From positions 1-37,874 of the IMG/VR virus record IMGVR_UViG_3300032516_005724: a DNA stretch of 37,874 bases, one strand, 5' to 3'. Of the stretch, positions 1,040 to 37,874 are shown piece by piece (the first letter of the stretch is position 1; each line of letters begins with the position of its first letter). Under the pieces are notes generated by a model, which ran no database searches, was not told the DNA's origin, and saw only the letters and a program-made list of their open reading frames with translations. The stretch comes from a virus. A program made the translations under genes and the position numbers.

Positions 1040-3651
1040 TGCTGCACGAACACCCCGACTACGCGCCGAACCGCTACGAGCAAGAGGGCGGCACGCAGAT
1101 GCTGGCGCAGCGCTGCATCTTCTGCCAAGTGCAGGGGCGCCCCGGTATCCTGCGCGACCCGGAGAGCATCGAGCGCGGGTGCGGCCCAGTGTGCGCCGCG
1201 AAGCACGGGATCTATACCGAGGCGGGCCCAGTGGATCAGGAGGCGTTGAAGCATGCGCTCGAAACGGCCCCAGCGCTCATGCGAGAGGCCGTCGAGGGCA
1301 AGCTCCCCGACGCTCGTAAAGCGGTCAGCGCGGCGATCCACGCTTCGGGCCGAGCTTGGGAAACGGGAGCGGCGGACGCAGCTTCGTACGTCGGAAGTGC
1401 AATGGAACTGTCGAGCGCGCTCGGCTACCCCGGAACCTACGACGCTCTGATGAACGTCGCCATCCTGGGTGTGAAGTACGACGAGCAGGGCAACGTCATC
1501 GACAGCGGCAAGAAGCCGAAGGGGATCGTTCTCAAAGATGCCGGCCAGGGTATGTGGCAACTGGCGTTGCCGTTCCTCAAAGACAACGTGTGGCGGCCGA
1601 CGCTGGAGGCGCTGAAGGCTGCCGGGATTCGCAATCGCAAGAACCAGCTAGGCAAGTGGGAGTCCCTGTTCCCTGGCACCGAGATTGGCTGGATCAGAAT
1701 CCTGAACGCAATGGTGCCGACGCTGGCCGGCGCGCTCGGCGTGATGCCCGACGGCGAAATCTTCGTCGTGCCCAACGCGCCATTGCCGCTGCCCGCGCCG
1801 CCAGCGCCAGCTCCACCCAGCGTGGGGGCAGAGAAAGCGGCCAACCCGCCCGAGCCGGGCAAGCTCGACGCCGAGGCACGCGAGGTCCAAGAGGGCGGCA
1901 CGGTGTTCCTGAAGGACAAGCCGATGGTCGTGGCCTGGATCAGCAACGACCGGGTGAGAGCGATCTTGCTCACGCCCGAGGCTGCCGCCAGGTCGATGGA
2001 GGAGCTTGGCTTCCTGCATGGGAAACGCTTCGGCGGAGTCAGTGTCGGCATGCGCGAGGTGAAGACCACGCCGGTCACTCAGGCCGAGGTCGCAAGGGTC
2101 GAAGAAAAGACCGCGGAGCCCATGCCGCCGCCAGCGCCCGATTTTGAGCTGCCCGAGGGCTTGCACCCGTGGCAGCGCGACGGAGCGATTTGGCTCCGCC
2201 AGCGCAAGGCCGGCATTTTGGCGTTCGAGCAGGGCGTCGGCAAGACGGCTACAGCCATCTGCGCTGCGCAGACGCCGATGCTGGTTGTGTGCAACAAGTC
2301 GCTGCGGGTCAACTGGCAGCGCGAGATCAGCAAGCTCTGGCGCCCCGACCTGGCGGTCTACACGATCAGCACGGGCGCCAAGCGCGACCTGGCGAGCTTC
2401 AGCGCGGCTGACGTCGTGATCGTGAACTACGACATCGTGCACAAGCTCATCGACGACTTCGCCGAAAAGGGCTTTCGCACGATCATCTGCGACGAGTCAC
2501 AGAAGCTCAAGGATTTCAAGCTCTCGTGGAAAAAGGACGATAGTGGCCGCTGGCAGCCGCGGCTCGGCGGTTCGCGGCGCGCACAGTCGATCTGGGAAAT
2601 CGCCCAGCCCATCGAGTACCGCTTTATGCTTTCTGGCACGCCGATGGACAACGGGCGTCCGCGAGAGCTGTTTGGTCAGCTCAACCTTGTGTCACCGCGG
2701 CAATTCACCAACTTCAGGACGTTCTGCGAGTATTTCTGCGGCCCCGACGACGTGTTAGTTAAAGGCGGTCGCAAGGTCCGCACGTATGACGGCGCCACCA
2801 ACACGCTGGAGCTACACGAGGCCATCCAAGGCAAGTGCTACATGCGCGTGACCAAGGACGTACTGAACCTCCCGCCCAAAGCCCGCGAGACAGTGCTGCT
2901 TTCGCTCGATGACGTGACCGCAAAGGAATACAACGCCGCGGCGCGCGATCTGTTGAGCTACATCGAAAAGAACTATGGCTGGGCTGCCATGAACTCGGCG
3001 GCCAAAGCGGAGGCCCTTCGGCGGCTGGGAGTGCTCCGGCGGCTATGCGGAATCGGCAAGGTCGAAGCATTTGCGGAGCAGTGCCGCGACAACTGGGAAG
3101 GCTCGCACCGTCCGTTCCTGGTGTGGGCCTATCACAAAGAAGTGCAGCAAGCGTTGCTGGCCGCGTTCAAGCAGTTCACTGATTGGAAAGTCGGGTCGAT
3201 TTTGGCGGAGGACAAGCCGGACGAGCAAACGCGCATGAAAACTCACTTCCAAGATGGGCTGCCAGAGTCTGCGCCGCCCGAGCAGCGCGACTACCTCGAC
3301 GTACTCGTGTGCTCTCTCTCGATGGCGCGCGAAGGACACACGCTCACGCGGGCCGAGGAAGCGTATTTCATCGAACGCCTGTGGTCGCCGTTCCACTTGG
3401 AGCAGGCCGAGGATCGCATCCACCGCATCGGCACGAAAAACCAAGTGACGATTTTCTACTACGATGCGCCGGGCACGGTAGACGAAGAAATCGGCGTGAT
3501 GCTGGATCGCAAGTTGCGTGCTGGCCGAGAGGTCATCGAGGGCTACACGCTGACCGATGCACAAGTAGCTGACACGTTGTTCGGCAAGACTCGGGAATTG
3601 AAACGGAACCCGAGCAAGCCGACGCAGTGTGACTGGCTCGAAGCGGAGTGA
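1039..3651 (+). CDS. SNF2-family DNA helicase/translocase with N-terminal cysteine cluster
   Basis: An 870-residue superfamily 2 ATPase of the SNF2 type. The helicase core starts near residue 375 (LHPWQRDGAIWL). Motif I is QGVGKT at about 398-403, motif II is DESQ near 485, motif III is LSGTP near 531, and the C-terminal RecA-like lobe carries QAEDRIHRIG near 787, the SNF2 motif VI. The first 60 residues hold CxxC and GCGPVC elements, a probable treble-clef zinc site like those on phage SNF2 proteins (DUF6011-like from memory). The middle, about 265-290, is a Pro/Ala linker. I chose ATG 1039 rather than the upstream in-frame start because it overlaps the previous stop. The expected role is ATP-driven remodelling of DNA or of protein-DNA complexes during phage replication, recombination or repair, as for phage UvsW/SNF2-like helicases. 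The precise substrate is unknown. Confidence 0.92.
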   Translation: MLHEHPDYAPNRYEQEGGTQMLAQRCIFCQVQGRPGILRDPESIERGCGPVCAAKHGIYTEAGPVDQEALKHALETAPALMREAVEGKLPDARKAVSAAIHASGRAWETGAADAASYVGSAMELSSALGYPGTYDALMNVAILGVKYDEQGNVIDSGKKPKGIVLKDAGQGMWQLALPFLKDNVWRPTLEALKAAGIRNRKNQLGKWESLFPGTEIGWIRILNAMVPTLAGALGVMPDGEIFVVPNAPLPLPAPPAPAPPSVGAEKAANPPEPGKLDAEAREVQEGGTVFLKDKPMVVAWISNDRVRAILLTPEAAARSMEELGFLHGKRFGGVSVGMREVKTTPVTQAEVARVEEKTAEPMPPPAPDFELPEGLHPWQRDGAIWLRQRKAGILAFEQGVGKTATAICAAQTPMLVVCNKSLRVNWQREISKLWRPDLAVYTISTGAKRDLASFSAADVVIVNYDIVHKLIDDFAEKGFRTIICDESQKLKDFKLSWKKDDSGRWQPRLGGSRRAQSIWEIAQPIEYRFMLSGTPMDNGRPRELFGQLNLVSPRQFTNFRTFCEYFCGPDDVLVKGGRKVRTYDGATNTLELHEAIQGKCYMRVTKDVLNLPPKARETVLLSLDDVTAKEYNAAARDLLSYIEKNYGWAAMNSAAKAEALRRLGVLRRLCGIGKVEAFAEQCRDNWEGSHRPFLVWAYHKEVQQALLAAFKQFTDWKVGSILAEDKPDEQTRMKTHFQDGLPESAPPEQRDYLDVLVCSLSMAREGHTLTRAEEAYFIERLWSPFHLEQAEDRIHRIGTKNQVTIFYYDAPGTVDEEIGVMLDRKLRAGREVIEGYTLTDAQVADTLFGKTRELKRNPSKPTQCDWLEAE

Positions 3652-11552: not shown

Positions 11553-14117
11553 ATGAGCAGCGACGCGCTGTTTGTCACCGAGCTGTCCGAGGATCAGTTT
11601 CCGCCGCCCGGCAAGTACGTCGCGGCCTCGACGACGCAAGCCTACGGCATGCTGACGGCGATGGTCGCAGCCGGCGATGCAACGCTGCTCGGCGAGCGTT
11701 GGGAGAAAGGCGGACCGAGCGGCAGCACCAAGTACGTCGCTGTGCAGGTTGGAGCGGCACGCCGCATGGGCCGCAACGGCTACTTGCTTTCGGTGCACGA
11801 TGGCTACCATGCCAATGCGCGCAAGATCCAGGTCAAGGCCGGCAAGCGGTTCTTCAGCAACGCTTTGAAAGACTACGGGCACAACTGGCCGGAGAAATGG
11901 TGGCGCGAGGCGATTCAGAATTCAGTGGATGCCGGGGCGCGCAACGTCCAGTGCGTGATCAAGACGCAGGACGACGGCAACGTGCTGGTGTCGGTGATTG
12001 ACGATGGCAAGGGCATGGACCCGTACACCGTCGAGCACAAGTTTCTGGTGCTGGGCGAGACGACCAAGGAAGGCGAGGCGGGAGCTGCCGGCGGGTTTGG
12101 GAAGGCTAAGGAGCTACTGATCCTGCCATGGCTCGGATGGGAAGTGCAGTCACACGAAACCGTTGCGCGCGGCGTCGGAGACGAAGGCGAAATCGAAACC
12201 GCTTCCGAGTACCTGAATGGCACGCGCCTGAGCGTGCTCATGCCGAGCGGTCAGCACACGTCGGCCTCGGACGCAATGGCGTTTCTGCTCAAGTGCAACC
12301 TGCCGCGGGTGAAATTCACCGTGGACGGCGAAGTTGTGCAAGCGAAGCTCGGTGTGCGCCAGGAGATTCTAAATATCGACGACAAGGTGGCCGTTTACTA
12401 CGACGAGAAGAACACCAACTACCCGTCCTACATACTGGTGCGTACCAAGGGACTATTCATGTTCGAGGCGTACGCATCAAGCAAGCCGCCGGGTGCGATT
12501 ATGATCGAATTGCTTCGGCCATCCATCGAGTTGCTCACGGCCAACCGTGACGGTTTTGCGGACTGGGAGCTAAGGCGCCAGGTCGCAGACTTCACGCAAC
12601 GTCTCGCCGTCGAAAAGAAGGAGGCAGTGCGCGCCAAGGAAAAGAAGATCCGAAAGAAATTCCGTGGCAAGGGCGGGTTTAAGGCAGCGCCGGCCGAGCG
12701 CGTCAAAGCGGCCATGCTCGAACGTCTGGGCCCCATCGAGGCCGAAGGTAAGAAGCTCCGCGGCGGCGACCGCGAGCTATCGGAAGAACAAACGGACGCG
12801 CTGATCGACATTCTGAGCCACGCGCAGGCGGGGACGCTGGGAGCGTTCAGCGAGGGCCCAGTGCCAATCGTACCCCGCGCAGGCGAGTACGGCGGCGGAA
12901 CCAACGAGCCCGGCGAGTACACCGAGTACGGTGCGCCGGGGCCCAAAACTAAGTGGGAGCCAGTTGCAGAAGGCGCCGAATACGAAGAAGGCGCCGAATA
13001 CAGACTGGGGTTGAGCGAGACGGCCACTGGGACACTGCTCACCATCACGCCGGAGATTGCGGAGCAGATGCTCAAGAACCTCGCGGTGTCCGGGGCCTCG
13101 CATGTCGAGAACATCGTGAAGCAACTGGCGTGGGAGCCGGACTTCTATCTGATCAACGAGACGGCCAACTGGAACATCCCAAAGAAGTTCTATCCCGAGT
13201 CGATGACGGCGGACGTGCGCAAGCTCGCGCGGTTCTGGGCAGAAATGTGTCGGTTCGTTTTGGTGTGCGTAAACAGCGCGGCCGAGTTTGGCGTGGGCTT
13301 CATTTTTGATCGGCACGTCGTCGCCCAGTACGTGCAAGAGGAAGACGAACACTGGCTCATGCTTAACCCGTTCGACGACGGCGACCCGCAGAGCGGCAAG
13401 CTCAAGAAGCTCGACGACGCGAACATGGCCGACGTGTACGCGAGCGCACTGCACGAGGTCACGCACATGGCGGACCGGACCAGCGATCACGACGTGGACT
13501 TCGCCATCGCGCTGACAAAGAACATCGGGCTGATGTTCGGCAAGGAGAAGCAGGCCCGAGCGATCAAGAGCTTGGTGCTAGCCGCGGAGAAAGAAGTGAC
13601 TGCGAAGATCAAGGCGACGCGGGGCCCGGCGCCTCCACGCAGAGCGCCGAAAGAGCGAAGGCGGGACTATGTGGACATTCGCACGAGCGCCCCGCCGGGC
13701 GGGCGGCACGACGGGGAGAGTGCGGACGCCTGGGAGCGACCTTCGTCCAAGTGGACGGTAATTTGGGTCGGCAACCCGGTTGGTGGCGCCGACGTGTTCG
13801 AGCTGGGCTACGCCTACGGGCCAGCAGGCCCGGATACCGTGGAAGTTGTGCGCTTGCCGTTCGAGCGAGGCGGACTGATCGACCAGCTCGGGCTCAACGA
13901 CAACGACGTGCGTTGGGTCAACGACTCGACTCTGCTGGGCAGCTCGATGTTTGAAATGGAAGCAAGCAGTGAACTGATGGGCCACCGCATCGACGCGCTG
14001 AAGTGGATACTGGCGGCGATGGAACTGAGCGCGCAGGACGTTGCGAGGCGGGCGGGGGTGCCGGTCTACCAAATCTCCATGAACGAGTGGGACGACCGTT
14101 GGCTGATCCGACGCTAG
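11553..14117 (+). CDS. GHKL (Hsp90/MutL-type) ATPase fused to HEVTH metalloprotease-like domain
   Basis: An 854-residue protein with a Bergerat-fold ATPase near the N-terminus. The N-box helix is REAIQNSVDAGA (about 118-129), the G1 box is DDGKGM (about 150-155), and the G2 box is GGFGKAK (about 180-186). A transducer-like region follows (LSVLMPSG, KFTVDGEVV) with a conserved-looking R-PSIE-L-TANRDG segment. About 345-395 is a lysine-rich helix. The second half carries LHEVTHMADRT (H634, E635, H638), a potential zinc-protease site, and a C-terminal alpha/beta tail to 854. The 11545-11553 gap has no promoter, so it is probably expressed with the upstream membrane protein. ATP-driven clamp closure coupled to proteolysis, or to a non-catalytic metal site, is the natural reading but is inference. 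No family member with this exact pairing comes to mind. Confidence 0.8.
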   Translation: MSSDALFVTELSEDQFPPPGKYVAASTTQAYGMLTAMVAAGDATLLGERWEKGGPSGSTKYVAVQVGAARRMGRNGYLLSVHDGYHANARKIQVKAGKRFFSNALKDYGHNWPEKWWREAIQNSVDAGARNVQCVIKTQDDGNVLVSVIDDGKGMDPYTVEHKFLVLGETTKEGEAGAAGGFGKAKELLILPWLGWEVQSHETVARGVGDEGEIETASEYLNGTRLSVLMPSGQHTSASDAMAFLLKCNLPRVKFTVDGEVVQAKLGVRQEILNIDDKVAVYYDEKNTNYPSYILVRTKGLFMFEAYASSKPPGAIMIELLRPSIELLTANRDGFADWELRRQVADFTQRLAVEKKEAVRAKEKKIRKKFRGKGGFKAAPAERVKAAMLERLGPIEAEGKKLRGGDRELSEEQTDALIDILSHAQAGTLGAFSEGPVPIVPRAGEYGGGTNEPGEYTEYGAPGPKTKWEPVAEGAEYEEGAEYRLGLSETATGTLLTITPEIAEQMLKNLAVSGASHVENIVKQLAWEPDFYLINETANWNIPKKFYPESMTADVRKLARFWAEMCRFVLVCVNSAAEFGVGFIFDRHVVAQYVQEEDEHWLMLNPFDDGDPQSGKLKKLDDANMADVYASALHEVTHMADRTSDHDVDFAIALTKNIGLMFGKEKQARAIKSLVLAAEKEVTAKIKATRGPAPPRRAPKERRRDYVDIRTSAPPGGRHDGESADAWERPSSKWTVIWVGNPVGGADVFELGYAYGPAGPDTVEVVRLPFERGGLIDQLGLNDNDVRWVNDSTLLGSSMFEMEASSELMGHRIDALKWILAAMELSAQDVARRAGVPVYQISMNEWDDRWLIRR

Positions 14118-14752
14118 CCGTCTTCGTCCAGACCATTGCGGGGCGGGAGAAGGCACTGGCCCACACGTGCGCCCAGCTTGAGGCGAGCGACGTCGGGACG
14201 GACTACACCGTGCTCACGGGCGAGCCAGGCAAGAGCGCGCGAGAGCACCTGCTGGCGGTGCTGGACGTGATGGGCAGCTCCGACGCGGACCTCGTGCTGC
14301 GGTTGGAGGACGACATCGACGTGGCCGCGCACATGAGGCACAACCTCACGCACTGGCGGGAGCTGCATGACCCGCGGTTCGGGCTCGGCTGGGCGTTCTC
14401 GCCGGGTGGGGTGCGGACCATCATTGACTACTGGCACCAGCGTCCAGGCACGTCCAAATGGGTTTCCGCGCCGTACGGGTACTCGCAGGCGGTGCTGGCC
14501 TGGAAACGCGACCTAGAGGCGCTCCGGGCGGCCTGCACGGCCTGGTGCGCCAAGACTCCCGGCGACGCCGGCCAGGACTTGTGCCTGTCGGCCGCGGCGG
14601 TCGCCATCGGCAAGCTCGTGTGCATTCACGCCCCGAGCCAGGTCGAGCACCGGCTCGACTTCGGCACGACGCTCAAGCACCCTCCCAATCCGCTCTACGG
14701 GACGAGCCGGGGTGAGTTTGCTAAGTTTGCCCAATGGAAGCGCCCGGCCTAG
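14099..14752 (+). CDS. Glycosyltransferase-like protein, first tandem paralogue
   Basis: A 217-residue protein of glycosyltransferase-A-like appearance. An N-terminal strand LAVFVQTIAGRE is followed by a Rossmann-like stretch. The DXD-like signature LVLRLEDDIDV (about 77-87) is where GT-A enzymes bind nucleotide-sugar and metal, and QVEHRLD occurs near the end. I chose the TTG start at 14099 because it aligns with the ATG of its paralogue, has a purine-rich stretch upstream, and overlaps the previous gene by 19 nt, exactly as the paralogue overlaps this gene. Possible roles are sugar modification of phage DNA, of virion fibres or of host surface polysaccharide. The substrate cannot be read from sequence. 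Confidence 0.62.
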   Translation: MADPTLAVFVQTIAGREKALAHTCAQLEASDVGTDYTVLTGEPGKSAREHLLAVLDVMGSSDADLVLRLEDDIDVAAHMRHNLTHWRELHDPRFGLGWAFSPGGVRTIIDYWHQRPGTSKWVSAPYGYSQAVLAWKRDLEALRAACTAWCAKTPGDAGQDLCLSAAAVAIGKLVCIHAPSQVEHRLDFGTTLKHPPNPLYGTSRGEFAKFAQWKRPA

Positions 14753-15360
14753 CGACGTTCGTGCAAACGGTGCCGGGTCGCGAGCTTGTACTCGCTGGCT
14801 TGGAGCAATCGCTGCGCGAGTCGGACGCGGGCGACTACACGGTGGTTGCTCACCCTCCGGGCCTGACGGTGGCCGAGTTTTTCCTGGCACTGCTCCGCAC
14901 GATGGCCACCTCCGACGCCGAGCTGCTACTGCGCCTGGAGGACGACGCGCTGGTCAATCGCCACCTGCGGCACAACCTCACGCACTGGGCCGCTGTCGCC
15001 CAGGCCGACTTCGGCGCCGGCTGGGTCTACTCGCCCGCCTTGACGAGCTGCGACGTAACACACGGGCGACGCCTACAGACCAAGCTGCGGCGTCGAATCA
15101 TCGGCGGCGGAGTGGGCATCCTGTTCCGGCGCTCCGACATGCCGTGGATGATCGCCGGCTGCGAGCGGTGGTTCGAGGAGAAGGGCGGCGACGCGATGGA
15201 CTACGCCGTGAGCGACACGGTGTATCGCGCTGGGCGCCAGCTCTACCTGCACGACCCGCCGCTTGTAGAGCACCGCATGGTGATAAGCGCGCTGGGACAC
15301 GTCGTGTGGCCGTACCACTGCACGCAGGGAGCGTTCAGGCGCGACTGGAGGCGCCCGTGA
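14734..15360 (+). CDS. Glycosyltransferase-like protein, second tandem paralogue
   Basis: A 208-residue protein clearly related to the preceding gene. Shared elements include FVQT near the N-terminus, LRLEDD followed by HLRHNLTHW in the middle, GAGW-YSP, and VEHR near the C-terminus. The copies differ strongly in the acceptor-side half, where this one has RRRIIGGGVGILFRRSDMP. That pattern fits duplication followed by specialisation. ATG 14734 lies within the end of the first paralogue. It is coupled by GTGA to the small zinc ribbon gene downstream. As before, LEDD is the candidate metal and nucleotide-sugar site. Confidence 0.65.
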   Translation: MEAPGLATFVQTVPGRELVLAGLEQSLRESDAGDYTVVAHPPGLTVAEFFLALLRTMATSDAELLLRLEDDALVNRHLRHNLTHWAAVAQADFGAGWVYSPALTSCDVTHGRRLQTKLRRRIIGGGVGILFRRSDMPWMIAGCERWFEEKGGDAMDYAVSDTVYRAGRQLYLHDPPLVEHRMVISALGHVVWPYHCTQGAFRRDWRRP

Positions 15361-19474: not shown

Positions 19475-22400
19475 ATGGCCAACAGCAAAGCTCTAGTCAT
19501 TCAGTCTGGCGTAACGAAGCAGATCCCCGACGCGGATACGCTGATCGTTTCCACGGGCATCCTCTCCGCCACGGGCATCAACCTGAACGCGGATACTCCC
19601 GGCGCGCAGACCGTGGAAATCGGGCGGGTGAACGCCACGGCCGTCAACATCGGGCGCGTGGGTCAAACAACCACGATCAAAGGCGCCTTGCAGGTGGACG
19701 GTGCCGAAACAGTGACCGGGATCTCCACGTTCAACAACAACGCGCTTTTCAATGGCGACGTGACATTCGGCGATGCTGCCGCCGACACGGTTACGTTCAC
19801 GGGCAAAGTGGCCGGTGACATCAACTTCAAGACTGAGGGGGTCACGCACAACATCGGCATCGGAGCTGCGCCGGCAGCGACGGTTGCGGGTGACGACGTT
19901 GAGATCGACGGCGGACTTGGTGGTGTGGGCAGCGGCGGCTCGCCAGGCGGCCAAGGTGGCTTTGCGGCAGCCGTCGGCGGGCTAGGAGGCACCGGCACAG
20001 CAGTCGCTGGCGACAATGGTGGCGTGGGCGGCGACGCTCGTACGGTAGGCGGCACGGGCGGCGCGACGCTGGGAGCGAATAACCCCGGCACGGGCGGGCA
20101 AGTGATCATCGCGGGCGGCGCCGCGGGAACTGGTGGCTCTGGTAACGCGGACGGCGGCGCGGTCTTCCTCAATGGTGGCGCCAAGAGCGGCACGGGTGTG
20201 AAGGGCCAGGTGCTCATCGGTTCGCTCGCAGCGAGCGCAATCTTCATTGGTAACGGCACGGACAATCCAAGCACGACGTTCCAGGGAACAGGGAAAGTCC
20301 GGCTTGGCGCTGGCTTCGAGGAGTTCGCGAACGGTGTTGCTGCGGCCGTGAGTCCGGCGGGAGAAGGCCGACTCCGTTACAACAACACCAGCGGCACGTT
20401 CCAGGTGTCCATCAGCGGCGGTGTTTACACGGACCTCGCGGTTGGAGGCGCCGAATCTCTGGCGACCACGCTGGCCGCCGGCAACACGACGGGCGCCAAC
20501 GCAACGACGGTCGGCAACAACATCGTCTTCTCGGGTTCCGGCGTATCGCAGGACGGCATTCGCGTCGGTGGTGTTGCGGGACTCGCGTTTGCGCTCTCCT
20601 ACAGCTCCGTGGCCACCGCTATCGGCGGCGCGGTGAACATCACTGCTCAGCAGGGCGCAGCGGGTAGCGCGGGCGGCTCTGCGTCACTGGCCGGTGGCCC
20701 CGGAACCGGCGCGGGCGACGGCGGCGCCGCGTCACTGGCCGGAGGGGTCGGCGGCGCAGGCGGCGCCGACATCGGCGGCGCCGCGACGGTAAACGGCGGC
20801 GCAGGCAAAGGCGGCGGCGGCGCACTCAATCTCTACAGCGGTCAGGTCACGCCAACTGGAGCAGGCGCGGGCGGCAACATCACCATGACGGCTCGCCCCG
20901 GCGTTGGCGGCGCCGGTAACGGTGGGACAATCACTGTCCTTGCTGGCGATGGCACCGGCACTGGCGCGGCGGGCACGATTTCGCTCACCGCGGGTGCGGG
21001 CGGCTCTGGCCTTGCCGGCGGCGCCATGCAGCTTCAGGCCGGCACGGGCGATGGAGCTGGCAACGGCGGACCAGTGAATATCAGCGGCGGCGCCAGCAAT
21101 GCCACGAGTGGCACGGGCAACGGTGGAGCGACCACCGTGCAAGGCGGCACAGGCGGCAAAACGTCCGGCAGTGGCGGCGATCTGAATCTGTATAGCGGGC
21201 TGCCACACCCGACCAGCGTTTCGGGTGGTGACGGTGGCTCAGTCGTCGTGATTGCACGCAACGGCAAGGGCGCGGCTGGCATTGGAGGAGCAGTCACCAT
21301 CGACGCGGGCAATGGCACCGGGACTGGCTCGGCGGGCTACATTGCCCTCACCGCAGGCGACGGCGGAGCCAATGTCATTGGCGGCGCGGTAGACATTTTG
21401 GGCGGCGTCGGTGGTGGCAGCAGCTCTCCCGCAGGCGGCGCGGTGACAATGAAGGGTGGTCAAGGTGGGCTGCCCAATGGCTCCGGCGGCAGGGCCACCG
21501 TGAACAGCGGCGAGCTGAGCGGGTCAGGCAATCCCGGTGACATTCGTCTGGGCCTTGGGGATACGACGCTCGGGATATTCACAGGAGTCCTGGCGGACAG
21601 GGGACGATTCACCTACGGCGCAGAGATGACGCCGCAGTTCGTGCAAGCGACCGCGACACTCTCCGCGGGCCGAGATTTCACAATCCAGCCTCAGACGGGG
21701 ACCGTTGGCTCTGGTGGCCAGCTCACCATGTACGGCGGAGGCGGCACCGGTGCAGCCGTCGATGGTGGCGACATCATTTTCCAGGGCGGCACCGTGACCG
21801 ATGGCTCCGCTGGTGCCTTCCGCTTCTTCGGCGCGAATGGCGTGGGCACGGGCATGCTGGGAGGCGGGTTCTCCGTCACCTTGGGCGCGGCTACCGACGC
21901 TGTGGCGGGTGCTGACATCGCGTTGAACGCCGGCACGGGTGGTGCGACCGGAGGCGTGGGAGGAAATGCCTCCCTGGTTGCCGGAAGCGGCGGAACCGTA
22001 GGCGACGGCGGCCAGGTCTACATTTTTGGTGGCTTCCCCACCACGAACGGTAGCGGCGGCAACGTCAACTTGACCGGCCCGGATGCTGTTGGCGGCACCG
22101 CCAACAACGGCGGCAGCATCGTGGTCGAGAGCGGCGCCAAGACCGGCACGGGCGTCGCCGGGGCCATCGATCTGAACGTCACCTCGGGCTTCTTGACTCG
22201 CGTCGGCGGCCAACTGCTGCTCAAGGAGCTGTCGGCATTCCCGACGCCAGCGAGCACATTCGGGGCGCTCTACACGAAGTCGGCCGACAGCAACCTGTAC
22301 TTCAAGACTGACGGTGGAGTTGAGACTCAACTCACCCCCGCTGCCGTACCGGGCACCGAAACCCTTGCCACCACGCTGGTCGCCGGCAACACGACGGGCG

Positions 22401-24193
22401 CGACGGCGACGACCGTCGGAAACAACATCGTATTCTCGGGCGCCGTCACGCAGGACAGCATCCGTCTGGGAGGCACCGCGGGAGCAAACTTCTCCATCGC
22501 GTACTCGGGAGCTTCTACCATCGCGGGGGGCGACATCTCGTCCACTGCGCAGACCGGCGCAGTCACGACAGCGGGTGGCAGCACCTCTGGCATTGGCGGC
22601 ACCGGCGGCGCGGCTAGCGCTGGCACCCCTGGCGGCGCGGGCGGCACGGGTCGCGTCCGCGGCGGCGTAGGCGGCGCGGCTGCCGGTGGGGCAGGCGTAG
22701 GCGGAGCTGGTGGTGTGGCGAGCATCCTGGCAGGCGCAGGCGGAGCTGGCACGGCCACGGGCGTAGCCGGAGCTGGCGGCGCCGTGAACCTCATTGCGGG
22801 CGATGCTGGCGCCGCTGCCGGAGCTGGCGGCGGCGTGGGCGGGCAGGTCTACATCGAGGCTGGCACCGGCACCGACGCTGGGCCCACGCACGGTGACATC
22901 CACATCGGAGAAGACCTCGTTTCTGGCAAGACGCGCAGGATCTACATCGGCAACGCCACCACAAACCCGCCGACTCTGTTCCAGGGCTCCGGCACCGTTT
23001 CTGTGACAGGGCTCTTGGCTGCCAACGGGGACGTGGATCTGGGCGACGCTGCCGCTGATACCATCAGCATGATTGGCCGCGTGGACACCAGCGTCGAGTT
23101 TACCAACGGTGCAAACAGGCTCATCTCTGTGCAGGACGCAGCGGCTGGCACCGTCGGTAAGCGCATCGCGCTCGCAGGCGGAGCGGGCGCCCCGGATGCC
23201 GGAGCGGGCGGCTTTACTGGCGGCCCCGGTAACCTGAATGGCGGCAACGGTGGCGCCAGCGTGGGCACGGGCGCAGGCGGTGCAGGCGGCACCTCGAATG
23301 TCTCCTCCGGCACCGGCGGAGCTGGCTCTGGCGCTTCGGCCGGTGGGGCTGGCGGCATTACTGCCGTGGCGGGCGGCGTTGGCGGCGCGAGCGGCACGGG
23401 TTCTGCCGCGGGCGCAGGCGGCGACATCTCAATCACAGGCGGAGCAGCCGGCGCAATCACAGGCGGTGGCACTGGCAGCACGGGCGGCAACGTCACGGTC
23501 AACGGTGGCCTCGCGACAGCCGGCGCCTCCGGCACCCTCGGCCTGGGCACAGTCAGCACGAGCGCCGTGAACATCGGCAACGCGACCAACAACCCGATCA
23601 CGACGTTTGCGGGCACCGGCACCGTCCGGCTCACTGGCTCCAACCAGCAGCTCTCACTGGTCGGCTCGGGAGCGGGCACTGGCGGCGGCATCCTCACGAT
23701 GTTCGAGGCGGCCGATCCGGCGACCGCAGCCAACACGGGCGCGGTCTACACGAAGGATGTTTCGGGAGCCACGCAACTGTTCTTCCGGTCGGACAGCAGC
23801 GGCGTCATCACGCAGCTCACTCCCGCGGGCGGGTCCGCGAGCAGCGGAGTCGTCATCACTGGCTTGACCACAACGGCAATGACGATCTCGGGCCAAGCCG
23901 GGTACGTCAGCGGTAACGATACCGTGTCTCCATGCGACGCGAACAACACCGCAGCGCAGGCACGCCTGTTCGGGTTCTACGAGGGCACCGCGGGCTCAAT
24001 GCGGGTGGCCGGAGTAGTGACGCCGATCTTCACCGTGGCAGCGGCTGCAAACGACCCCATCTATCTGTCGCTCGTGGCAGGCGAGGTCACCCCGACCGCG
24101 CCGACGGGTAGCGGAGAGTTTGTCTCTCCGGTGGGCATTGCGCTGAGCACAACCAGGATGCTGATTCAGACCCAGGTGGTGGTCGGCCTCTAA
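19475..24193 (+). CDS. Giant glycine-rich repeat fibre protein
   Basis: A 1572-residue virion fibre-like protein. The N-terminus (ALVIQSGVTKQIPDADTL) matches the attachment tag of the 24226 product (PLVINAGAIQQVQSGDTL). Long blocks are built of 16-20-residue units, each with a short strand (x-V-x-I/L) followed by a Gly/Ala/Thr-rich turn such as AGDGTGTGAAG. These units are punctuated by conserved spacers (TTGNNIVFSG type, about residues 325-370 and 960-1005) and by FGALYTKSADSNLYFKTDGG motifs. The C-terminal domain (about 1460-1572) resembles that of the 18510 product. The composition recalls polyglycine-II or beta-solenoid fibre tips such as the glycine-rich motifs of phage S16 gp38, although no homology is claimed. 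A receptor-binding or surface-adhesion role is likely. Confidence 0.82.
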   Translation: MANSKALVIQSGVTKQIPDADTLIVSTGILSATGINLNADTPGAQTVEIGRVNATAVNIGRVGQTTTIKGALQVDGAETVTGISTFNNNALFNGDVTFGDAAADTVTFTGKVAGDINFKTEGVTHNIGIGAAPAATVAGDDVEIDGGLGGVGSGGSPGGQGGFAAAVGGLGGTGTAVAGDNGGVGGDARTVGGTGGATLGANNPGTGGQVIIAGGAAGTGGSGNADGGAVFLNGGAKSGTGVKGQVLIGSLAASAIFIGNGTDNPSTTFQGTGKVRLGAGFEEFANGVAAAVSPAGEGRLRYNNTSGTFQVSISGGVYTDLAVGGAESLATTLAAGNTTGANATTVGNNIVFSGSGVSQDGIRVGGVAGLAFALSYSSVATAIGGAVNITAQQGAAGSAGGSASLAGGPGTGAGDGGAASLAGGVGGAGGADIGGAATVNGGAGKGGGGALNLYSGQVTPTGAGAGGNITMTARPGVGGAGNGGTITVLAGDGTGTGAAGTISLTAGAGGSGLAGGAMQLQAGTGDGAGNGGPVNISGGASNATSGTGNGGATTVQGGTGGKTSGSGGDLNLYSGLPHPTSVSGGDGGSVVVIARNGKGAAGIGGAVTIDAGNGTGTGSAGYIALTAGDGGANVIGGAVDILGGVGGGSSSPAGGAVTMKGGQGGLPNGSGGRATVNSGELSGSGNPGDIRLGLGDTTLGIFTGVLADRGRFTYGAEMTPQFVQATATLSAGRDFTIQPQTGTVGSGGQLTMYGGGGTGAAVDGGDIIFQGGTVTDGSAGAFRFFGANGVGTGMLGGGFSVTLGAATDAVAGADIALNAGTGGATGGVGGNASLVAGSGGTVGDGGQVYIFGGFPTTNGSGGNVNLTGPDAVGGTANNGGSIVVESGAKTGTGVAGAIDLNVTSGFLTRVGGQLLLKELSAFPTPASTFGALYTKSADSNLYFKTDGGVETQLTPAAVPGTETLATTLVAGNTTGATATTVGNNIVFSGAVTQDSIRLGGTAGANFSIAYSGASTIAGGDISSTAQTGAVTTAGGSTSGIGGTGGAASAGTPGGAGGTGRVRGGVGGAAAGGAGVGGAGGVASILAGAGGAGTATGVAGAGGAVNLIAGDAGAAAGAGGGVGGQVYIEAGTGTDAGPTHGDIHIGEDLVSGKTRRIYIGNATTNPPTLFQGSGTVSVTGLLAANGDVDLGDAAADTISMIGRVDTSVEFTNGANRLISVQDAAAGTVGKRIALAGGAGAPDAGAGGFTGGPGNLNGGNGGASVGTGAGGAGGTSNVSSGTGGAGSGASAGGAGGITAVAGGVGGASGTGSAAGAGGDISITGGAAGAITGGGTGSTGGNVTVNGGLATAGASGTLGLGTVSTSAVNIGNATNNPITTFAGTGTVRLTGSNQQLSLVGSGAGTGGGILTMFEAADPATAANTGAVYTKDVSGATQLFFRSDSSGVITQLTPAGGSASSGVVITGLTTTAMTISGQAGYVSGNDTVSPCDANNTAAQARLFGFYEGTAGSMRVAGVVTPIFTVAAAANDPIYLSLVAGEVTPTAPTGSGEFVSPVGIALSTTRMLIQTQVVVGL
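20451..20535 (+). repeat. Dispersed 85-bp repeat, copy 1 (partner 22356-22440)
   Basis: This stretch and 22356-22440 encode nearly the same spacer (S/T-LATTL-AGNTTGA-ATTVGNNIVFSG), with clear DNA similarity including shared runs such as GCCGGCAACACGACGGGCG. The two copies mark the boundary between a structural module and the next glycine-rich block, so the protein appears to have grown by block duplication. Confidence 0.8.
20641..21560 (+). repeat. Glycine-rich solenoid-type repeat block
   Basis: This region codes for a continuous run of about 16-20-residue units. Each unit has a hydrophobic strand triplet (TITVL, TISLT, AMQLQ, DLNLY, SVVVI, AVTID, YIALT, AVDIL, AVTMK, DIRLG) followed by a glycine-rich turn. 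I count about fourteen units. Shorter blocks of the same kind lie at roughly 19900-20200, 21690-22180, 22530-22870 and 23160-23560. Confidence 0.75.
22356..22440 (+). repeat. Dispersed 85-bp repeat, copy 2
   Basis: Second copy of the spacer-coding repeat described at 20451-20535, with synonymous drift at several codons (GTC versus GCC, GGAAAC versus GGCAAC). Confidence 0.8.
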
Positions 24194-30896: not shown

Positions 30897-30942
30897 TTGG
30901 CCCGGGTGGGCTAATGCGCTATCATTGCTGTCAGTGCTGTCA
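30897..30942 (+). promoter_or_regulatory. Regulated promoter of the MoxR/VWA operon with 17-bp operator
   Basis: TTGGCC (30897-30902), 17 bp, TATCAT (30920-30925), followed at once by the direct repeat TGCTGTCAGTGCTGTCA (30926-30942), which covers the predicted start of transcription. The same 17 bases occur inverted at 37674-37690. Unlike the leaderless units, this one leaves about 58 nt of leader and uses a strong ribosome site (AAGGGAAGGAAC) before ATG 30992. The placement fits repression by a bound protein. Confidence 0.75.
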
Positions 30943-30991
30943 CCTGGCAGGGAAGCTAAGTCTGGGCCAGCGACGTAAGGGAAGGAACAAA

Positions 30992-32125
30992 ATGGACTTC
31001 AACCACACCGTACAGGCTGTCTCGGTTACGCTCCAGACGCACGTGCCGGCGCTACTTGAGGGCGAGCCTGGCGTCGCGAAAACGGCCATCGTTGGGGCGG
31101 TGCTCGACCAGCTCTGCGACGAGGTGCACACGAGCATAGTGGCGCTGCACGAGCCGCCCGAGTACGGGGGATTTCCGGTGCCGCAAGCGGCGACGAAGGA
31201 CGCGCCAGCGCGCGTCGCGCTGCTACCGAACGACTGGGTGATCCGACTGGCCGGCGCGGAGAAGCGCGCGGGCCTATTCCTCGACGAGTTTTCGTCGGGC
31301 GCTCCCGCCACCCGCGCCGCCAGTATGCGCGGCGTGCACGAAAAATGGTGGGGCGCGGTGCAGATCCCAAACCTCGCCGTCGCCGCGGCGATGAACCCCG
31401 CCGAGTACGCCGAGAACGGATTCGAGCTGGGCGCCGCGCTCTCGAATCGGTTCTGCCACCTTGATTGGAACATGCCCACGAGCTACTGGGTAGATCAGCT
31501 CGTGGCCGGCTTCCCAGCGCCGACCGCCACGCGCGTTCCGAGCAACTGGCGCGAGTCGAAACACATGCGCGACGCCACCACCTGGCTGGCGACGTTCGCA
31601 AATGCGCGGCCGGCGGTAATCCAGGCCATGCCCGCGAGCGCTGCGCTGCGCGCCAAAGCGTGGCCGTCGTTCCGCTCATTCACGAACACCCGCGACTTGC
31701 TCGCGGCCTGCCTTGCAACCGGCTTCGGGCTCGACCACGCGGTCACGATTCTGTGCGCGTCGGGCTGCGTCGGCGCGGGCGCAGCGCACGAATTTTTGAC
31801 CTTCTGCTCGGAGTGCGACCTGCCGGACCCCGAGGCCGTGCTCGCGGCCCCGGCGTCGCTAGTGCTGCCGGCTCGTGGCGACCGTGCGTTCGCCGTTTTG
31901 ACCAGCGTCGTGCTGGCGGTGCTCGGCAACAACACGCCCCAGCGCTGGGGGCGGGCGTGGGACGTGCTTGCGGTGGCCGTGGACGCGAACCGCGTGGCAG
32001 TCGCCGCCAGCGCGGCGCGCTCGTTGGCGCAAGCGCGACCGAAGGGCGTGCGTGAACTGCCCAAAGCATGCACGGCGTTCGTCCCGATGCTCAAGCTCGC
32101 GGGCCTGATCACCGGGAGCAAGTGA
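30992..32125 (+). CDS. MoxR-like (CobS-type) AAA+ ATPase
   Basis: A 377-residue AAA+ ATPase. Walker A is GEPGVAKT (24-31), Walker B is LFLDE (95-99), and the sensor-1 asparagine is N135 in AAAMNPAEY. The run WLGAALSNRF-like ALSNRFCHL (about 150) is the arginine-finger region. This is the MoxR/CobS-type clade, whose members remodel or assemble protein complexes together with a VWA partner; CobS/CobT-like pairs occur in many phages. The VWA-metallopeptidase partner is two genes downstream. I chose ATG 30992 because of the strong ribosome site AAGGGAAGGAAC; an upstream in-frame ATG (30914) would lie inside the promoter. It is coupled to the next gene by TGATG. Confidence 0.9.
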   Translation: MDFNHTVQAVSVTLQTHVPALLEGEPGVAKTAIVGAVLDQLCDEVHTSIVALHEPPEYGGFPVPQAATKDAPARVALLPNDWVIRLAGAEKRAGLFLDEFSSGAPATRAASMRGVHEKWWGAVQIPNLAVAAAMNPAEYAENGFELGAALSNRFCHLDWNMPTSYWVDQLVAGFPAPTATRVPSNWRESKHMRDATTWLATFANARPAVIQAMPASAALRAKAWPSFRSFTNTRDLLAACLATGFGLDHAVTILCASGCVGAGAAHEFLTFCSECDLPDPEAVLAAPASLVLPARGDRAFAVLTSVVLAVLGNNTPQRWGRAWDVLAVAVDANRVAVAASAARSLAQARPKGVRELPKACTAFVPMLKLAGLITGSK

Positions 32126-32589
32126 TGAGGAAGCGCGTCGAGGCCGAGATGGCTGTGGGCATCCTGAGCGGCGGCAACGCGACGGTTGTGCAACTTATCG
32201 AGGCCGGGCTGCGCAGCTTCGAGGGTGTGCGCCGCGGCCTGGAAGCCATGACGCGCACGGTACTCGCGAGTGCGAGCAAGCGCCGCCGCTACGTCGCGAG
32301 CGGGCTCCCCTTCGGCGCCAAGCTCGTTTTGCCGCTGGGGCAGAGCGAGTCGCGCACAGTGTTTCGGCCGGATGGCAGCGCGACAAGCAAAAACACCGGC
32401 TGCCCCGTGGTGGAACTGGTGCTGCGCTCGGGACGCAAAGAGCGAACTTTCGACGTTTATGTCGCTTCGCTTTGGGTGGCGGAGCGCGTGCAGGGGAACC
32501 CGGATGCCGCGGTGCGCGTGCTCATGGCCATCGAGCGGGCTCGGCGCCAGGTGTTCGCGCTCGCCGAGGAAGGCACGCGGTGGCAGTGA
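32125..32589 (+). CDS. Hypothetical protein between the MoxR and VWA genes
   Basis: A 154-residue basic protein whose ATG overlaps the MoxR stop (TGATG). The N-terminal ~50 residues are helical. The centre (PFGAKLVLPLGQSESRTVFR... CPVVELVLRSGRKERTFDVYV) is beta-rich. The C-terminal helix pair (VASLWVAERVQGNPDAAVRVLMAIERARR) resembles the end of the 34560 product (RAALSLYRVLRHEPEEALRVLRLIEDATR), so the two genes are probably distant paralogues. Its location between ATPase and VWA suggests an adaptor or substrate, which is inference. Confidence 0.72.
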   Translation: MRKRVEAEMAVGILSGGNATVVQLIEAGLRSFEGVRRGLEAMTRTVLASASKRRRYVASGLPFGAKLVLPLGQSESRTVFRPDGSATSKNTGCPVVELVLRSGRKERTFDVYVASLWVAERVQGNPDAAVRVLMAIERARRQVFALAEEGTRWQ

Positions 32590-33869
32590 TGGCGATTTTT
32601 GGGATGCAGGCCGTCCAGCTCCGAGCCGCGTACGAGCGGCCCTACTTCGCGCTGGCCATCTACGCGGCGACCATCGTCGAGCGACCTGGCCTCGGGACGT
32701 TCGCGGTGGATAAATACTGCCGCATCTACGTGGACCCGGAGAAACTGGGCTCCGGCAAGGGCAAGTGGAACGTGCAGCAGGCGGCGTGGGTATTTATACA
32801 CGAAATCAGCCACTGGCTGCGCGTGCACCATGAGCGCGCCGAAGCGCTGGTCGCGGCCGGCGAATGCAGCGACTGCGCTGCCGAGCTAGTCAATGTCTGC
32901 GAGGACGCCGAGATCAACGGCGACGACCCGGACATCGTGCGCTGCGCGCCGGATCCAATGCTGCCCGAGCACATCGGGCAGCCGCCTCACCTGCTCTGGG
33001 AGGAATACTACGCGGCGCTGCAAAAGCAGGGTGGCAAGCGCTTGTGCAACGGTGGCAATCACAAGCCCGGCGAAGGTGCGGGCGAGGTCAGCAATCCCGG
33101 CGCGGGCCAGCCGCGCGACTGCGGTTCTGGCGCTCACGGCCAGCCGCGCGAGTGGGAGCTGCCGGCGCCGACCGACGAGACGCCCGGCATCGGCGAGGGC
33201 GAAGCTGCGCTCTTGCGCAAGGCGGTCGCGCGCGAGGTCGCTGACGCGGCGAAGAAGGACCGCGGCAGTGTGCCCGCGGGCTGGCAGCGTTGGGCGGACG
33301 CGCTGCTGACGCCGCCGACGATCCCCTGGGAGCGCGAGCTAGCGGCGCTGATGCACAATGCAATAACGATGGCGGCGGGCTGCGTCGATTACAGCTACGC
33401 GCGCCCGAGTCGCCGCGGCACGTTCGGGGGTGTGATCCAGCCGGCGCTCCGGCGCCCCCAGCCCGAGGCGACTGTGGTGCTCGACACGTCGGCCTCGATG
33501 AGTCAGCGCGACGTGACCGCGGCGCTCTGTGAAATCGACGGCATTCTGCGCGCGGTGGGACAACGGCGCGTGCCAGTGATCTGCTGCGACGCCCAGGCCG
33601 CTCCCGTCCAGCGGGTGAGCAGCGCCATGAACGTGACTCTGATCGGCGGCGGCGGCACCGACATGGGTGCTGGCATCGCGGCGGCAGTGAAGCTCAAGAG
33701 CAGGGTGATCATCGTGCTCACCGACGGCGAGACGCCGTGGCCAACCGAAGCTCCGCGCGGCGCGCAGCTCGTCGTCGGCTTGGTGCGCCAGGAAGGGGCG
33801 GGACCGCCGGGGTACTGCCGCGTGCCGGACTATGCCAAGCGCGTACTCACCATCCCGGTGGCGGCATGA
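32589..33869 (+). CDS. VWA-domain metallopeptidase-like protein (CobT/DUF2201-like)
   Basis: A 426-residue partner of the MoxR ATPase. The N-terminal domain carries WVFIHEISHWLRVHH (H71, E72, H75), then CAAELVNVCEDAEINGDD, the pattern of the DUF2201 metallopeptidase-like domain in which an acidic residue of the second helix completes the metal site. A Gly/Pro/Asn-rich linker spans about 150-200. The C-terminal von Willebrand A domain has a full MIDAS: DTSAS (299-303), the threonine of GGTDMG (T357) and TDGE (D379). MoxR-VWA pairs act as metal- or cofactor-insertion or complex-remodelling machines. ATG 32589 overlaps the previous stop. It is coupled to the next gene by ATGA. Confidence 0.88.
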   Translation: MAIFGMQAVQLRAAYERPYFALAIYAATIVERPGLGTFAVDKYCRIYVDPEKLGSGKGKWNVQQAAWVFIHEISHWLRVHHERAEALVAAGECSDCAAELVNVCEDAEINGDDPDIVRCAPDPMLPEHIGQPPHLLWEEYYAALQKQGGKRLCNGGNHKPGEGAGEVSNPGAGQPRDCGSGAHGQPREWELPAPTDETPGIGEGEAALLRKAVAREVADAAKKDRGSVPAGWQRWADALLTPPTIPWERELAALMHNAITMAAGCVDYSYARPSRRGTFGGVIQPALRRPQPEATVVLDTSASMSQRDVTAALCEIDGILRAVGQRRVPVICCDAQAAPVQRVSSAMNVTLIGGGGTDMGAGIAAAVKLKSRVIIVLTDGETPWPTEAPRGAQLVVGLVRQEGAGPPGYCRVPDYAKRVLTIPVAA

Positions 33870-35774: not shown

Positions 35775-35978
35775 ATGAGCGCCGAGCGCGTTCCCCCACG
35801 TCGGACTGGCACATCCGCCGAGTGCGTGCTGGTCCCCGTGCGAGATGTTCACGAGCTGCTGGAGAAACTGATTGAACTGGAAAACGCGATAGAGTCGATG
35901 GGAGCCGCACGCTTCGAGCTGCGCATGGCACGCATGAGAATCGAGAGCCTTCTGACAACTGAGACGGTAACGAAGTGA
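35775..35978 (+). CDS. Small coiled-coil-like protein
   Basis: A 67-residue protein. The first ~18 residues are Pro/Arg-rich, and the rest is a helix with leucine/isoleucine spacing (VHELLEKLIELENAIESMG) suggesting a coiled coil. It has no domain call. Its stop overlaps the GTG of the SGNH hydrolase gene, so the two are translationally coupled. It might be a partner of that enzyme or a small structural protein. Confidence 0.6.
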   Translation: MSAERVPPRRTGTSAECVLVPVRDVHELLEKLIELENAIESMGAARFELRMARMRIESLLTTETVTK

Positions 35979-36589
35979 GCCTGGACCGACGATGGGTGTA
36001 TGCGGGACTGGTAGTTGCCGCTGCCGGAGCTGGACTCGCCAAGCTCTTGCCGTCCGGGCCGCGCATTCGCGCGGGCACACGGCTCATGGTGGTGGGCGAC
36101 TCGCTGGCCGTAGGCATGGCGCCGTACTTCGCTTGCCTGAGCAAAGAGCAGAAGCTCCCCTTCGACGCGCTCGCCAAGGTCAGTACGCGCATTGACCAGT
36201 GGGCGGCGAGCCAAGTGCTCGCGGAGCACGTCGCGACGTTCAAGCCGACCCTTGTGCTCGTCAGCCTCGGCACCAACGACGCTTTTATGATGGGCGACGT
36301 CGCCGCCAAACAGCGCCCAGCGCTCGCGCAGCTCATAGCGCAGCTCACGGTAGGCGGCGCCGAACTGGCGTGGATAGGCCCGCCGCAGCTAGCGGGCAGG
36401 CCGAACGCCGGGCTGCTCACTCTGCTCAAGAGCGCCATCCCGGCGTCTAACTATTTCGCCTCCGAGACGCTTCCGATCCCACGCGGTCCCGACAACCTGC
36501 ATCCGACCGCCAAGGGCTACGCAGGCTGGTCTGGAGCCATCTGGCAGTGGCTCTCAGGGCCGCCTGGCTCGGGCTCGTGCGGCGCTTGA
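35975..36589 (+). CDS. SGNH/GDSL-family hydrolase with N-terminal membrane anchor
   Basis: A 204-residue hydrolase. The N-terminal helix (about 7-26, WVYAGLVVAAAGAGLAKLLP) anchors it or directs export. The SGNH blocks are present: GDSLAVGM (Ser43, block I), SLGTND (block III, N101) and DNLHPTAKGY (D173 and H176, block V). SGNH enzymes act as esterases or acetyl hydrolases. In phages they often deacetylate cell-wall or capsule sugars, or serve as lysis or adsorption factors. The GTG start overlaps the previous stop. Its neighbours, an anchored SLT transglycosylase and coiled-coil protein, support an envelope-directed role. Confidence 0.82.
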   Translation: MSLDRRWVYAGLVVAAAGAGLAKLLPSGPRIRAGTRLMVVGDSLAVGMAPYFACLSKEQKLPFDALAKVSTRIDQWAASQVLAEHVATFKPTLVLVSLGTNDAFMMGDVAAKQRPALAQLIAQLTVGGAELAWIGPPQLAGRPNAGLLTLLKSAIPASNYFASETLPIPRGPDNLHPTAKGYAGWSGAIWQWLSGPPGSGSCGA

Positions 36590-36837: not shown

Positions 36838-37068
36838 GTGGCGTGGCGTCTCAAGCACGGTGCGAGCAACTACAACTTTGTGGATCTGACGGGCCAGATC
36901 CTAGTGGGCTGTACGGTGCTGGGGCGCGCACCAAACACCGTTCGCGGGAACGCCGCGTGGTGCGTGCGCGCGGCTTGTGGCCACCGGATAGTGATCCAAG
37001 GCATCACGCTGCGCGCTAAACACAAGAGCAATCCGGCGCTGGAGCACCGCTGCAAGCCGTGTCGTTAG
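36838..37068 (+). CDS. DLTGQ-type zinc DNA-binding-like protein
   Basis: A 76-residue protein with the segment VDLTGQILVGCTVLGRAPN then AAWCVRAACGHRIVIQGITL and a C-terminal HRCKPC. This resembles the common phage module D-L-T-G-Q-x-F-G-x-L-T-V plus C-x-C-x-C-G and C-G-C, often found near or fused to HNH or AP2-type DNA-binding domains, though here the fusion partner is absent. It starts with GTG one base after the repressor candidate's stop. Its end overlaps by 4 bp the convergent gene on the minus strand. Confidence 0.62.
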   Translation: MAWRLKHGASNYNFVDLTGQILVGCTVLGRAPNTVRGNAAWCVRAACGHRIVIQGITLRAKHKSNPALEHRCKPCR

Positions 37069-37346
37069 CGCCGCCAAAGGTGAGGAAACATGCGGTTGAG
37101 CGCCGCCTGGCGCTGCGCGCAGGGCGAGCAGTTGGGATCGAGCCCGAGCGCGCGCGCCACCGGCTTGGCGACTGCCGCCACGGCGTCGCCAGCTCCAACG
37201 CTGCCGCACCGGGCGTGCTGGGCCGCGAAGGCGTTGGCGCCGGCTGGCGCGAACGCGCCGCCAACTCCGCAGCGCTCGCACTGCACCTGGAAGCCGCCGG
37301 GCACGGCCTGAAACAGAACCGACGGCGCTTGTGGATGCCGCTGCAT
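37065..37346 (-). CDS. Small zinc-binding hypothetical protein (minus strand)
   Basis: A 93-residue protein read against its neighbours. It has CERCG near residue 23 with AFAAQHARCG downstream, a C2HC-like cluster. A second part, GLDPNCSPCAQRQAALNRMFP, resembles a short conserved element of phage proteins (C-x-x-C-x-x-R-x-x-x-L-N). The ATG is supported by a TAGACT box 6 nt upstream. A nucleic-acid-binding role is plausible, but no family is assigned. Confidence 0.65.
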   Translation of the reverse strand: MQRHPQAPSVLFQAVPGGFQVQCERCGVGGAFAPAGANAFAAQHARCGSVGAGDAVAAVAKPVARALGLDPNCSPCAQRQAALNRMFPHLWRR

Positions 37347-37410: not shown

Positions 37411-37416
37411 TAGGAT
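37411..37416 (+). promoter_or_regulatory. Candidate leaderless -10 box before ATG 37423
   Basis: TAGGAT (37411-37416) lies 6 nt before ATG 37423, exactly as in other leaderless units. No good -35 box is present at 17-18 bp. It argues that ATG 37423 is the natural start of the following gene even though that frame stops after 20 codons. Confidence 0.45.
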
Positions 37417-37430
37417 GACGCCATGGACAA

Positions 37431-37664
37431 GTGGGACGCTATCAAGCTCGCGGCCACGATGCGCTGGGCGCCGAGGCGTTTCTAGCCAAGCACAAGTTCC
37501 GCCCCGGGCGCTACATGCTCGTCCGCGGTCGCAAGCGCTACCCCTCGAAAGCCGTCTTCGGCGTGGCGATGGGCCGCGCCGCGGCGAGCTTCTCGGGCGG
37601 CGCCGCCCACGTCCAGAAAGCCGCGAAACGCCTCGGGCTCCGCGTTGAGGCGCAGAGCAAGTGA
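37431..37664 (+). CDS. Stand-alone ScoMcrA-type head-domain protein, possibly frameshifted
   Basis: The frame opening at GTG 37431 gives 77 residues: HDALGAEAFLAKHKFRPGRY, then a strand (YMLVRGRKRYPSKAVFGVAMG) and FSGGAAHVQKAAKRLGLRV. This strongly resembles the small N-terminal head domain of ScoMcrA-like type IV restriction enzymes (D-x-L-G-x-E-x-F-L, R-Y-x-S-K-A, F-S-G-G). No nuclease or SRA domain follows, so it is not a restriction enzyme by itself. Immediately upstream, ATG 37423 reads MDKWDAIKLAA in another frame, resembling the missing first helix. A -1 shift near 37455 would join them, whether by sequencing error, mutation or a programmed shift. It is followed by the last operator-bearing promoter. 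Confidence 0.55.
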   Translation: MGRYQARGHDALGAEAFLAKHKFRPGRYMLVRGRKRYPSKAVFGVAMGRAAASFSGGAAHVQKAAKRLGLRVEAQSK

Positions 37665-37672
37665 CGGCGGCG

Positions 37673-37700
37673 TTGACAGCACTGACAGCACTGATAGACT
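37673..37700 (+). promoter_or_regulatory. Regulated promoter with inverted copy of the 17-bp operator
   Basis: TTGACA (37673-37678), 16 bp, and TAGACT (37695-37700). The sequence TGACAGCACTGACAGCA (37674-37690) overlaps the -35 box and spacer and is the exact reverse complement of 30926-30942. Downstream, GGTGTC/GACACC around 37706-37723 forms a small hairpin in the leader, before an AGGAAG ribosome site and ATG 37742. Confidence 0.75.
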
Positions 37701-37741: not shown

Positions 37742-37874
37742 ATGGGGAAACTCGAACGCACTCACCACGACGAACGCAACCGAGATGGGCGCTACCGCGC
37801 GTCGCCGCTATGCGATGGTTGCGGCAAGCCTGTCGGCACCAACTATGGCACGGACGCCGAAGTTTGCGGAGGGA
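37742..37874 (+). CDS. Partial gene, probable zinc-ribbon protein
   Basis: An open frame from ATG 37742 runs off the window end (44 codons seen): MGKLERTHHDERNRDGRYRA, then CDGCGKPVGTNYGTDAEVCGG. A CxxC pair and a later Cys suggest a zinc ribbon. It has an AGGAAG site a few bases upstream and lies under the operator-bearing promoter, so it is a probable member of the same regulon as the MoxR operon. The product cannot be identified from the fragment. Confidence 0.6.
   Translation, partial: MGKLERTHHDERNRDGRYRASPLCDGCGKPVGTNYGTDAEVCGG

Follow-up and report, generated by a model that had tools for sequence, protein, structure and literature searches.

Close to one end of a fragment from a little-known phage lies a short open reading frame that raises three questions: whether it encodes, on its own, the head domain of ScoMcrA-type restriction enzymes, where its gene begins, and what such a lone domain might do for a phage. 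Elsewhere, this domain mostly forms the N-terminal part of bacterial enzymes that cleave modified DNA. The window, i.e., the whole stretch of DNA analyzed here, is an entire viral record of 37,874 bases with 65% G+C, in which no terminal repeat of at least 10 bases was found. The features around the frame are listed below in window positions.

37065-37346, minus strand: upstream divergent ORF, with 47% identity over 38 aa to part of relative L012 (E 7e-5)
37411-37416, plus strand: TAGGAT, proposed earlier as a -10-like box; it contains AGGA (37412-37415)
37423-37485, plus strand: ATG ORF of 20 codons (MDKWDAIKLAATMRWAPRRF) with a TAG stop at 37483-37485; probable original start of the head gene, in another frame
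37431-37664, plus strand: head ORF with GTG start, TGA stop and 77 aa; ScoMcrA-type head without most of its first helix
37458-37661, plus strand: conserved core of the head domain, from the conserved Asp through the last residue, as taken from alignments A4 and A6
37673-37700, plus strand: sigma-70-like promoter TTGACA-16-TAGACT from the promoter scan, immediately 3' of the head ORF
37742-37874, plus strand: next ORF, CxxC-containing and cut by the record end

Identity of the head ORF

The motifs DALGAEAFL, RYPSKA and FSGG, named in the original prediction, are all present in the ORF that runs from GTG 37431 to 37664. Scans of the 77 aa against Pfam, PHROGs and NCBIfam gave no useful family, and the best match in a single-sequence phmmer search was ScoMcrA (5zmm), weakly so (E 0.034). 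A profile of 14 homologues, from which the window was left out, placed exactly one of the 840 window frames above threshold; this was the frame at 37419-37661, with 62.7 bits (E 1.1e-18), while the next window frame reached 4.5 bits and the maximum among 16,800 shuffled frames was 6.7 bits. The family alignment A4 (12 rows, the window row included) matched 5zmm residues 5-95 with an E of 1.5e-22. A structure model of the 77 aa, built from the homologue alignment, was of middling confidence (pLDDT 64.9, pTM 0.45). When this model was used in Foldseek, the top three rows were 5zmm chains, two of them with a prob of 1.00 (TMq 0.64), and VIA-align superposed it on 5zmm with a Z of 7.5 and an rmsd of 2.6 over 65 aligned residues, in a listing confined to 5zmm whose silence on other folds carries no weight. 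Collectively, profile, fold and homologues agreed with the proposed isolated head, and the ORF is a member of the ScoMcrA head-domain family.

All motifs are retained in the core of the domain, with an open frame that ends at its own stop and coding-like third positions, 53/60 of which are G or C. The net charge of the core, +11, was the highest of the 16 head cores compared, the 15 homologues ranging from -4 to +9, and several members of the family are not basic. The head core fills the 77 aa, and no SBD, SRA or other modified-base reader was found in the protein; likewise, no nuclease (HNH or other) was matched in it with Pfam or PHROGs, and the ORF stops at 37664. It had been described as a head with neither nuclease nor modified-base reader attached, and this was borne out; the ORF is thus not itself a ScoMcrA-like type IV endonuclease, an assignment that calls for both of these domains. 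Behind it, the promoter scan returned two sites of the TTGACA-16-TAGACT kind in 1,295 bases (shuffled mean 0.1), and the sigma-70-like site at 37673-37700 suggests that the next gene would be transcribed separately. The visible 44 residues of that gene (ORF 37742-37874) gave no nuclease signs, and the record ends 210 bases after the head ORF, with genes beyond 37874 out of view.

Start of the gene and the probable loss of frame

The ATG 37423 frame reads MDKWDAIKLAA and ends after 20 codons at the TAG 37483-37485, and TAGGAT lies 6 nt ahead of the ATG, both as predicted. The AGGA within this hexamer is 7 nt ahead of the ATG, and a putative ribosome-binding site is as good a reading of these letters as a -10 box; TAGGAT 37411-37416 did not appear in the list of the promoter scan, which required two hexamers. 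The claimed resemblance of MDKWDAIKLA to the first helix of the domain was within chance: joined to the downstream frame, the peptide did no better than random 10-mers, 739/3,000 of which equaled its best-of-four-spacings score. Against an ungapped helix matrix, it was equaled by 10.6% of 20,000 random peptides when the best of four offsets was taken, and by 2.6% at the best single offset. The ATG frame might nonetheless supply a first helix. The GTG-frame peptide had no helix 1 likeness, since 80% of random peptides scored as well.

The homologues and the codon usage were more informative about the start. The first helix was present in 11/11 homologues of alignment A4, and 18-22 residues precede the conserved Asp in 15/15 homologues, compared with 9 in the GTG product. 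When the homologue starts were collected, as had been suggested, 0/15 began at the equivalent of GTG 37431. A start at ATG 37423 would place about 12 residues ahead of the conserved Asp, fewer than in any homologue. With 20 window genes as the codon-usage reference (8,482 codons; 18 genes with relatives and two long ORFs), the ATG frame beat the GTG frame by 5.4 bits over 37426-37452. An equal preference for the equivalent wrong frame was seen in 57 of the 8,262 nine-codon segments drawn from these genes and, near gene starts (first 20 codons), in 12 of 400. From 37452 onward, the GTG frame scored -314 bits against -366 and -371 for the other two.

The possibility that GTG 37431 is the true start of a natural short form, with a functional helix-less 77-aa protein and a chance ATG at 37423, agrees with the uninterrupted ORF and with the model, in which the 77 aa are still predicted to fold as a head (TMq 0.64 with 5zmm). 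It is opposed by the short stretch before the conserved Asp, by the codon usage ahead of 37452 and by the lack of helix 1 likeness in the GTG-frame peptide, and we regard it as quite improbable. The codon usage and the homologue starts, not the helix likeness, make a frame break likely: ATG 37423 would have been the original start, with the frame lost in the deposited sequence between about 37450 and 37458, a conclusion that is likely, though short of proven. The frame shift proposed around 37455 therefore stands on these two lines of evidence, but its helix argument lies within chance. Because the deposited gene does not encode the first helix in frame, its product may be inactive.

As to how the break arose, either a recent mutation or an error near the contig end could account for it. 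If assembly or sequencing were at fault, the virus would have an intact gene from ATG 37423, and this overlaps with the reading that we prefer, the sole difference being where the break arose. Some 420 bases separate the break from the contig end, the core is otherwise intact, and no other frame breaks were seen when the relatives' proteins were compared with the window genes that have relatives, which makes a decayed genome unlikely. The absence of other breaks fits an isolated error, but it also speaks for a generally accurate assembly; we consider an error a serious possibility that we would nonetheless not presume. Programmed -1 frameshifting was not favored: judged by the general rule for such sites, no slippery heptamer of the usual type was seen by eye around 37450-37458.

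Head domains in other genomes and phages

About 20 genes link the divergent window phage to two records of about 125 kb. A search of these two relatives for head domains gave none, indicating that the head gene is accessory in the window phage.

Outside the head locus, the window has a SNF2-type helicase gene at 988-3651 (phrog_62, SNF2-rel_dom) that includes, close to its beginning, a DUF6011 stretch, and two adjacent ORFs at 14003-14752 and 14734-15360 that match one protein of relative G002 and look like a tandem duplication. A 1,572-aa ORF at 19475-24193 had no PHROG match. An ATPase gene at 30914-32125 (phrog_1297) adjoins a gene for a DUF2201 metallopeptidase/VWA-like protein at 32472-33869; this pair is kept in the two 125-kb relatives and looks like a phage ATPase-VWA pair. 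An SGNH/GDSL hydrolase-like protein, encoded at 35975-36589, is also kept in both.

The head domain occurs elsewhere in several settings. Six records of Roseomonas plasmids contain a related domain. Three were examined: in two, which the domain scan covered, an HNH protein begins with the head, and the remaining one is a frame without recognized HNH. The head is N-terminal to HNH in L010, L018, L019, L020 and the plasmid proteins L002 and L004, and N-terminal to T5orf172 in L005; in L006 (Sphingomonas hankyongi) it is fused to a MrcB_N/AAA_5 protein, a McrB-like NTPase architecture. As the head precedes different nucleases or a McrB-like NTPase, it is a module and not part of a nuclease. The genome-contig scan gave six head loci, five of them frames of 247-849 aa and the sixth a free-standing 95-aa bacterial head from Streptomyces griseoflavus (L009:2950-3237), with no obvious nuclease, by eye, among the adjoining listed ORFs. 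Five head loci came from the viral-contig scan. L022 is free-standing, and the frames of the other four (L018-L021) span 324-424 aa; Pfam detected HNH in 3/3 scanned (L018, L019 and L020). Further genome scans matched heads in 2/282, 3/289 and 1/296 genomes, each count including the center genome, which indicates that the family is rare; no further free-standing heads were found in them, the open frames being of 379-816 aa. Among phage records, tblastn gave nothing with the window protein and one chance-level row (E 0.5) with the Streptomyces head, and two early viral scans, together with one scan using a 1,150-aa window protein, gave no relative. Of the later viral head-domain scans, one gave only the L022 contig and the last only the L022 and L045 contigs.

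L022 (IMGVR_UViG_3300028840_002598) and L045 (IMGVR_UViG_3300017963_000068), the latter found by a search with the neighbor gene of the L022 head, are related 52-kb phages with one intact free-standing head each. The L022 head is of 88 aa, with AGGAGG ahead of its ATG, and the L045 head is of 89 aa. They have 68/88 residues in common, and the NG86 estimates over 88 codons (dN 0.157, dS 0.409) give a dN/dS of about 0.38, indicating purifying selection. That both phages keep an intact lone head suggests that the domain on its own is a genuine protein of phages, not debris. In a tree of 17 heads, the nearest neighbors of the window head by tree path were the Roseomonas plasmid proteins, its own branch was 1.81, and its highest identity was to the plasmid HNH protein L002 (49%). 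A grouping of the window head with L022 and L045 was not recovered by the tree, the three being monophyletic in 24% of 200 bootstrap trees.

These data bear on whether the window ORF is what is left of a restriction gene for a head joined to a nuclease, acquired from a host or plasmid, then truncated and frame-broken, and now without function. The likely frame break, the lack of an in-frame helix 1, the long branch, the top identity to a plasmid HNH protein and the two relatives without a head gene would all agree with such debris. However, the core keeps its motifs, open frame, own stop and coding-like third positions, and intact lone heads are under selection in two other phages; we think this origin unlikely, though worth keeping in view.

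In both L022 and L045, the stop of the head overlaps the start of the next gene as ATGA, forming the following modules.

L022, 4983-7458: head plus DpdA-like gene, ATGA coupling
L045, 3723-5941: head plus DpdA-like gene, ATGA coupling

A RecE-like nuclease precedes the L022 module and a C5-cytosine methylase follows it; with the same model, no C5-cytosine methylase was found in the L045 record, and neither the window nor its two relatives gave any C5-methylase. The partner downstream of the heads (434 or 650 aa) weakly resembles DpdA, a DNA base-exchange enzyme of 7-deazaguanine DNA modification known, for example, from phage 9g. DSGAF and GIGD occur in both the partner and phage DpdA, and hhalign gave a P of 0.004 against the phage 9g DpdA and of 4e-4 (probability 35%) against a profile of seven phage DpdAs, while two unrelated window proteins gave P values of 0.67 and 0.53 against DpdA. 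The comparison with phrog_887 (queuine tRNA-ribosyltransferase) gave an E of 0.04. Since Pfam TGT and QueC were each found in 0/5 records and the AF2 model of the L022 partner (pLDDT 35) was uninformative, the likeness to DpdA is only a lead. No relative of the partner was found in the window by tblastn and profile up to the record end at 37874, and the ATGA coupling of head and partner is also missing there, the next ORF beginning at 37742 behind the promoter-like site.

Possible role and relation to known systems

Our leading reading, which is tentative, is that the head gene of the window is an accessory phage gene that has likely lost its frame and whose intact protein would bind DNA as a small adaptor, working with phage DNA-modification enzymes by guiding or assisting them. 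Alternatively, the head might cover modified sites against host enzymes with the same head domain. The DNA binding is deduced solely from charge and domain architecture; the head is the one recognized domain besides HNH in the short Roseomonas proteins, making a DNA-reading role plausible. The original prediction offered two uses for a lone head. Recognition of modified DNA, or help with it, fits the neighbors in L022 and L045 better than a decoy does, but the window is without such a neighbor.

The other use, as a decoy or inhibitor, would have the lone head blunt restriction by competing for DNA, or for a partner, with those type IV enzymes of the host that carry a head. This would suit a free-standing copy, in a phage, of a domain otherwise seen in restriction-type enzymes, and its retention under selection by two phages, yet it gained no direct support. 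PMC6224610, the one paper in the literature searched that discusses ScoMcrA with a 'head domain', describes the head as small and of unknown function; according to the same paper, it is flexibly attached and the dimer contacts are made by the other three domains, so that poisoning by mixed dimers is unlikely. Moreover, L022 and L045 place the head with a modification-type gene. We hold a decoy to be improbable and tentatively favor a DNA-associated accessory protein of modification or anti-restriction over decoy or debris.

A more specific proposal is that the head could be the DNA-recognition subunit of a phage DpdA-like base-exchange enzyme, the same module that hosts join to nucleases, with the window head as a diverged member. 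We offer it as a long shot. If it were true, reading DNA would be the first role for the head domain. Lone phage heads beside a modification-type gene offer a simple route to the head's own function, and they would link host type IV restriction and phage DNA modification via one module.

Among known systems, the weak likeness to phage DpdA is confined to the partner in L022 and L045, no counterpart having been found in the window. The heads of these two phages are free-standing like that of the window and share with it the same short loop, YPSKA and FSGGAAH, at 48-49% identity; in contrast, they belong to a different phage group and have a complete first helix and the ATGA-coupled DpdA-like gene. 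The Roseomonas proteins WP_207419913.1 and WP_027297480.1 are 45-48% identical to the window head over the domain, but there head and HNH_2 nuclease, in this order, form a single 252-aa protein, whereas the window head is alone. Compared with ScoMcrA, the window head is free-standing, its frame lacks the first helix, the loop from GVAxG to FSGG is shorter, and SBD, SRA and HNH are missing; nevertheless, it is like the N-terminal head of that enzyme (5zmm, about residues 5-95) in profile, in fold and in the motifs DxxG..aF, Y.SKA and SGG.
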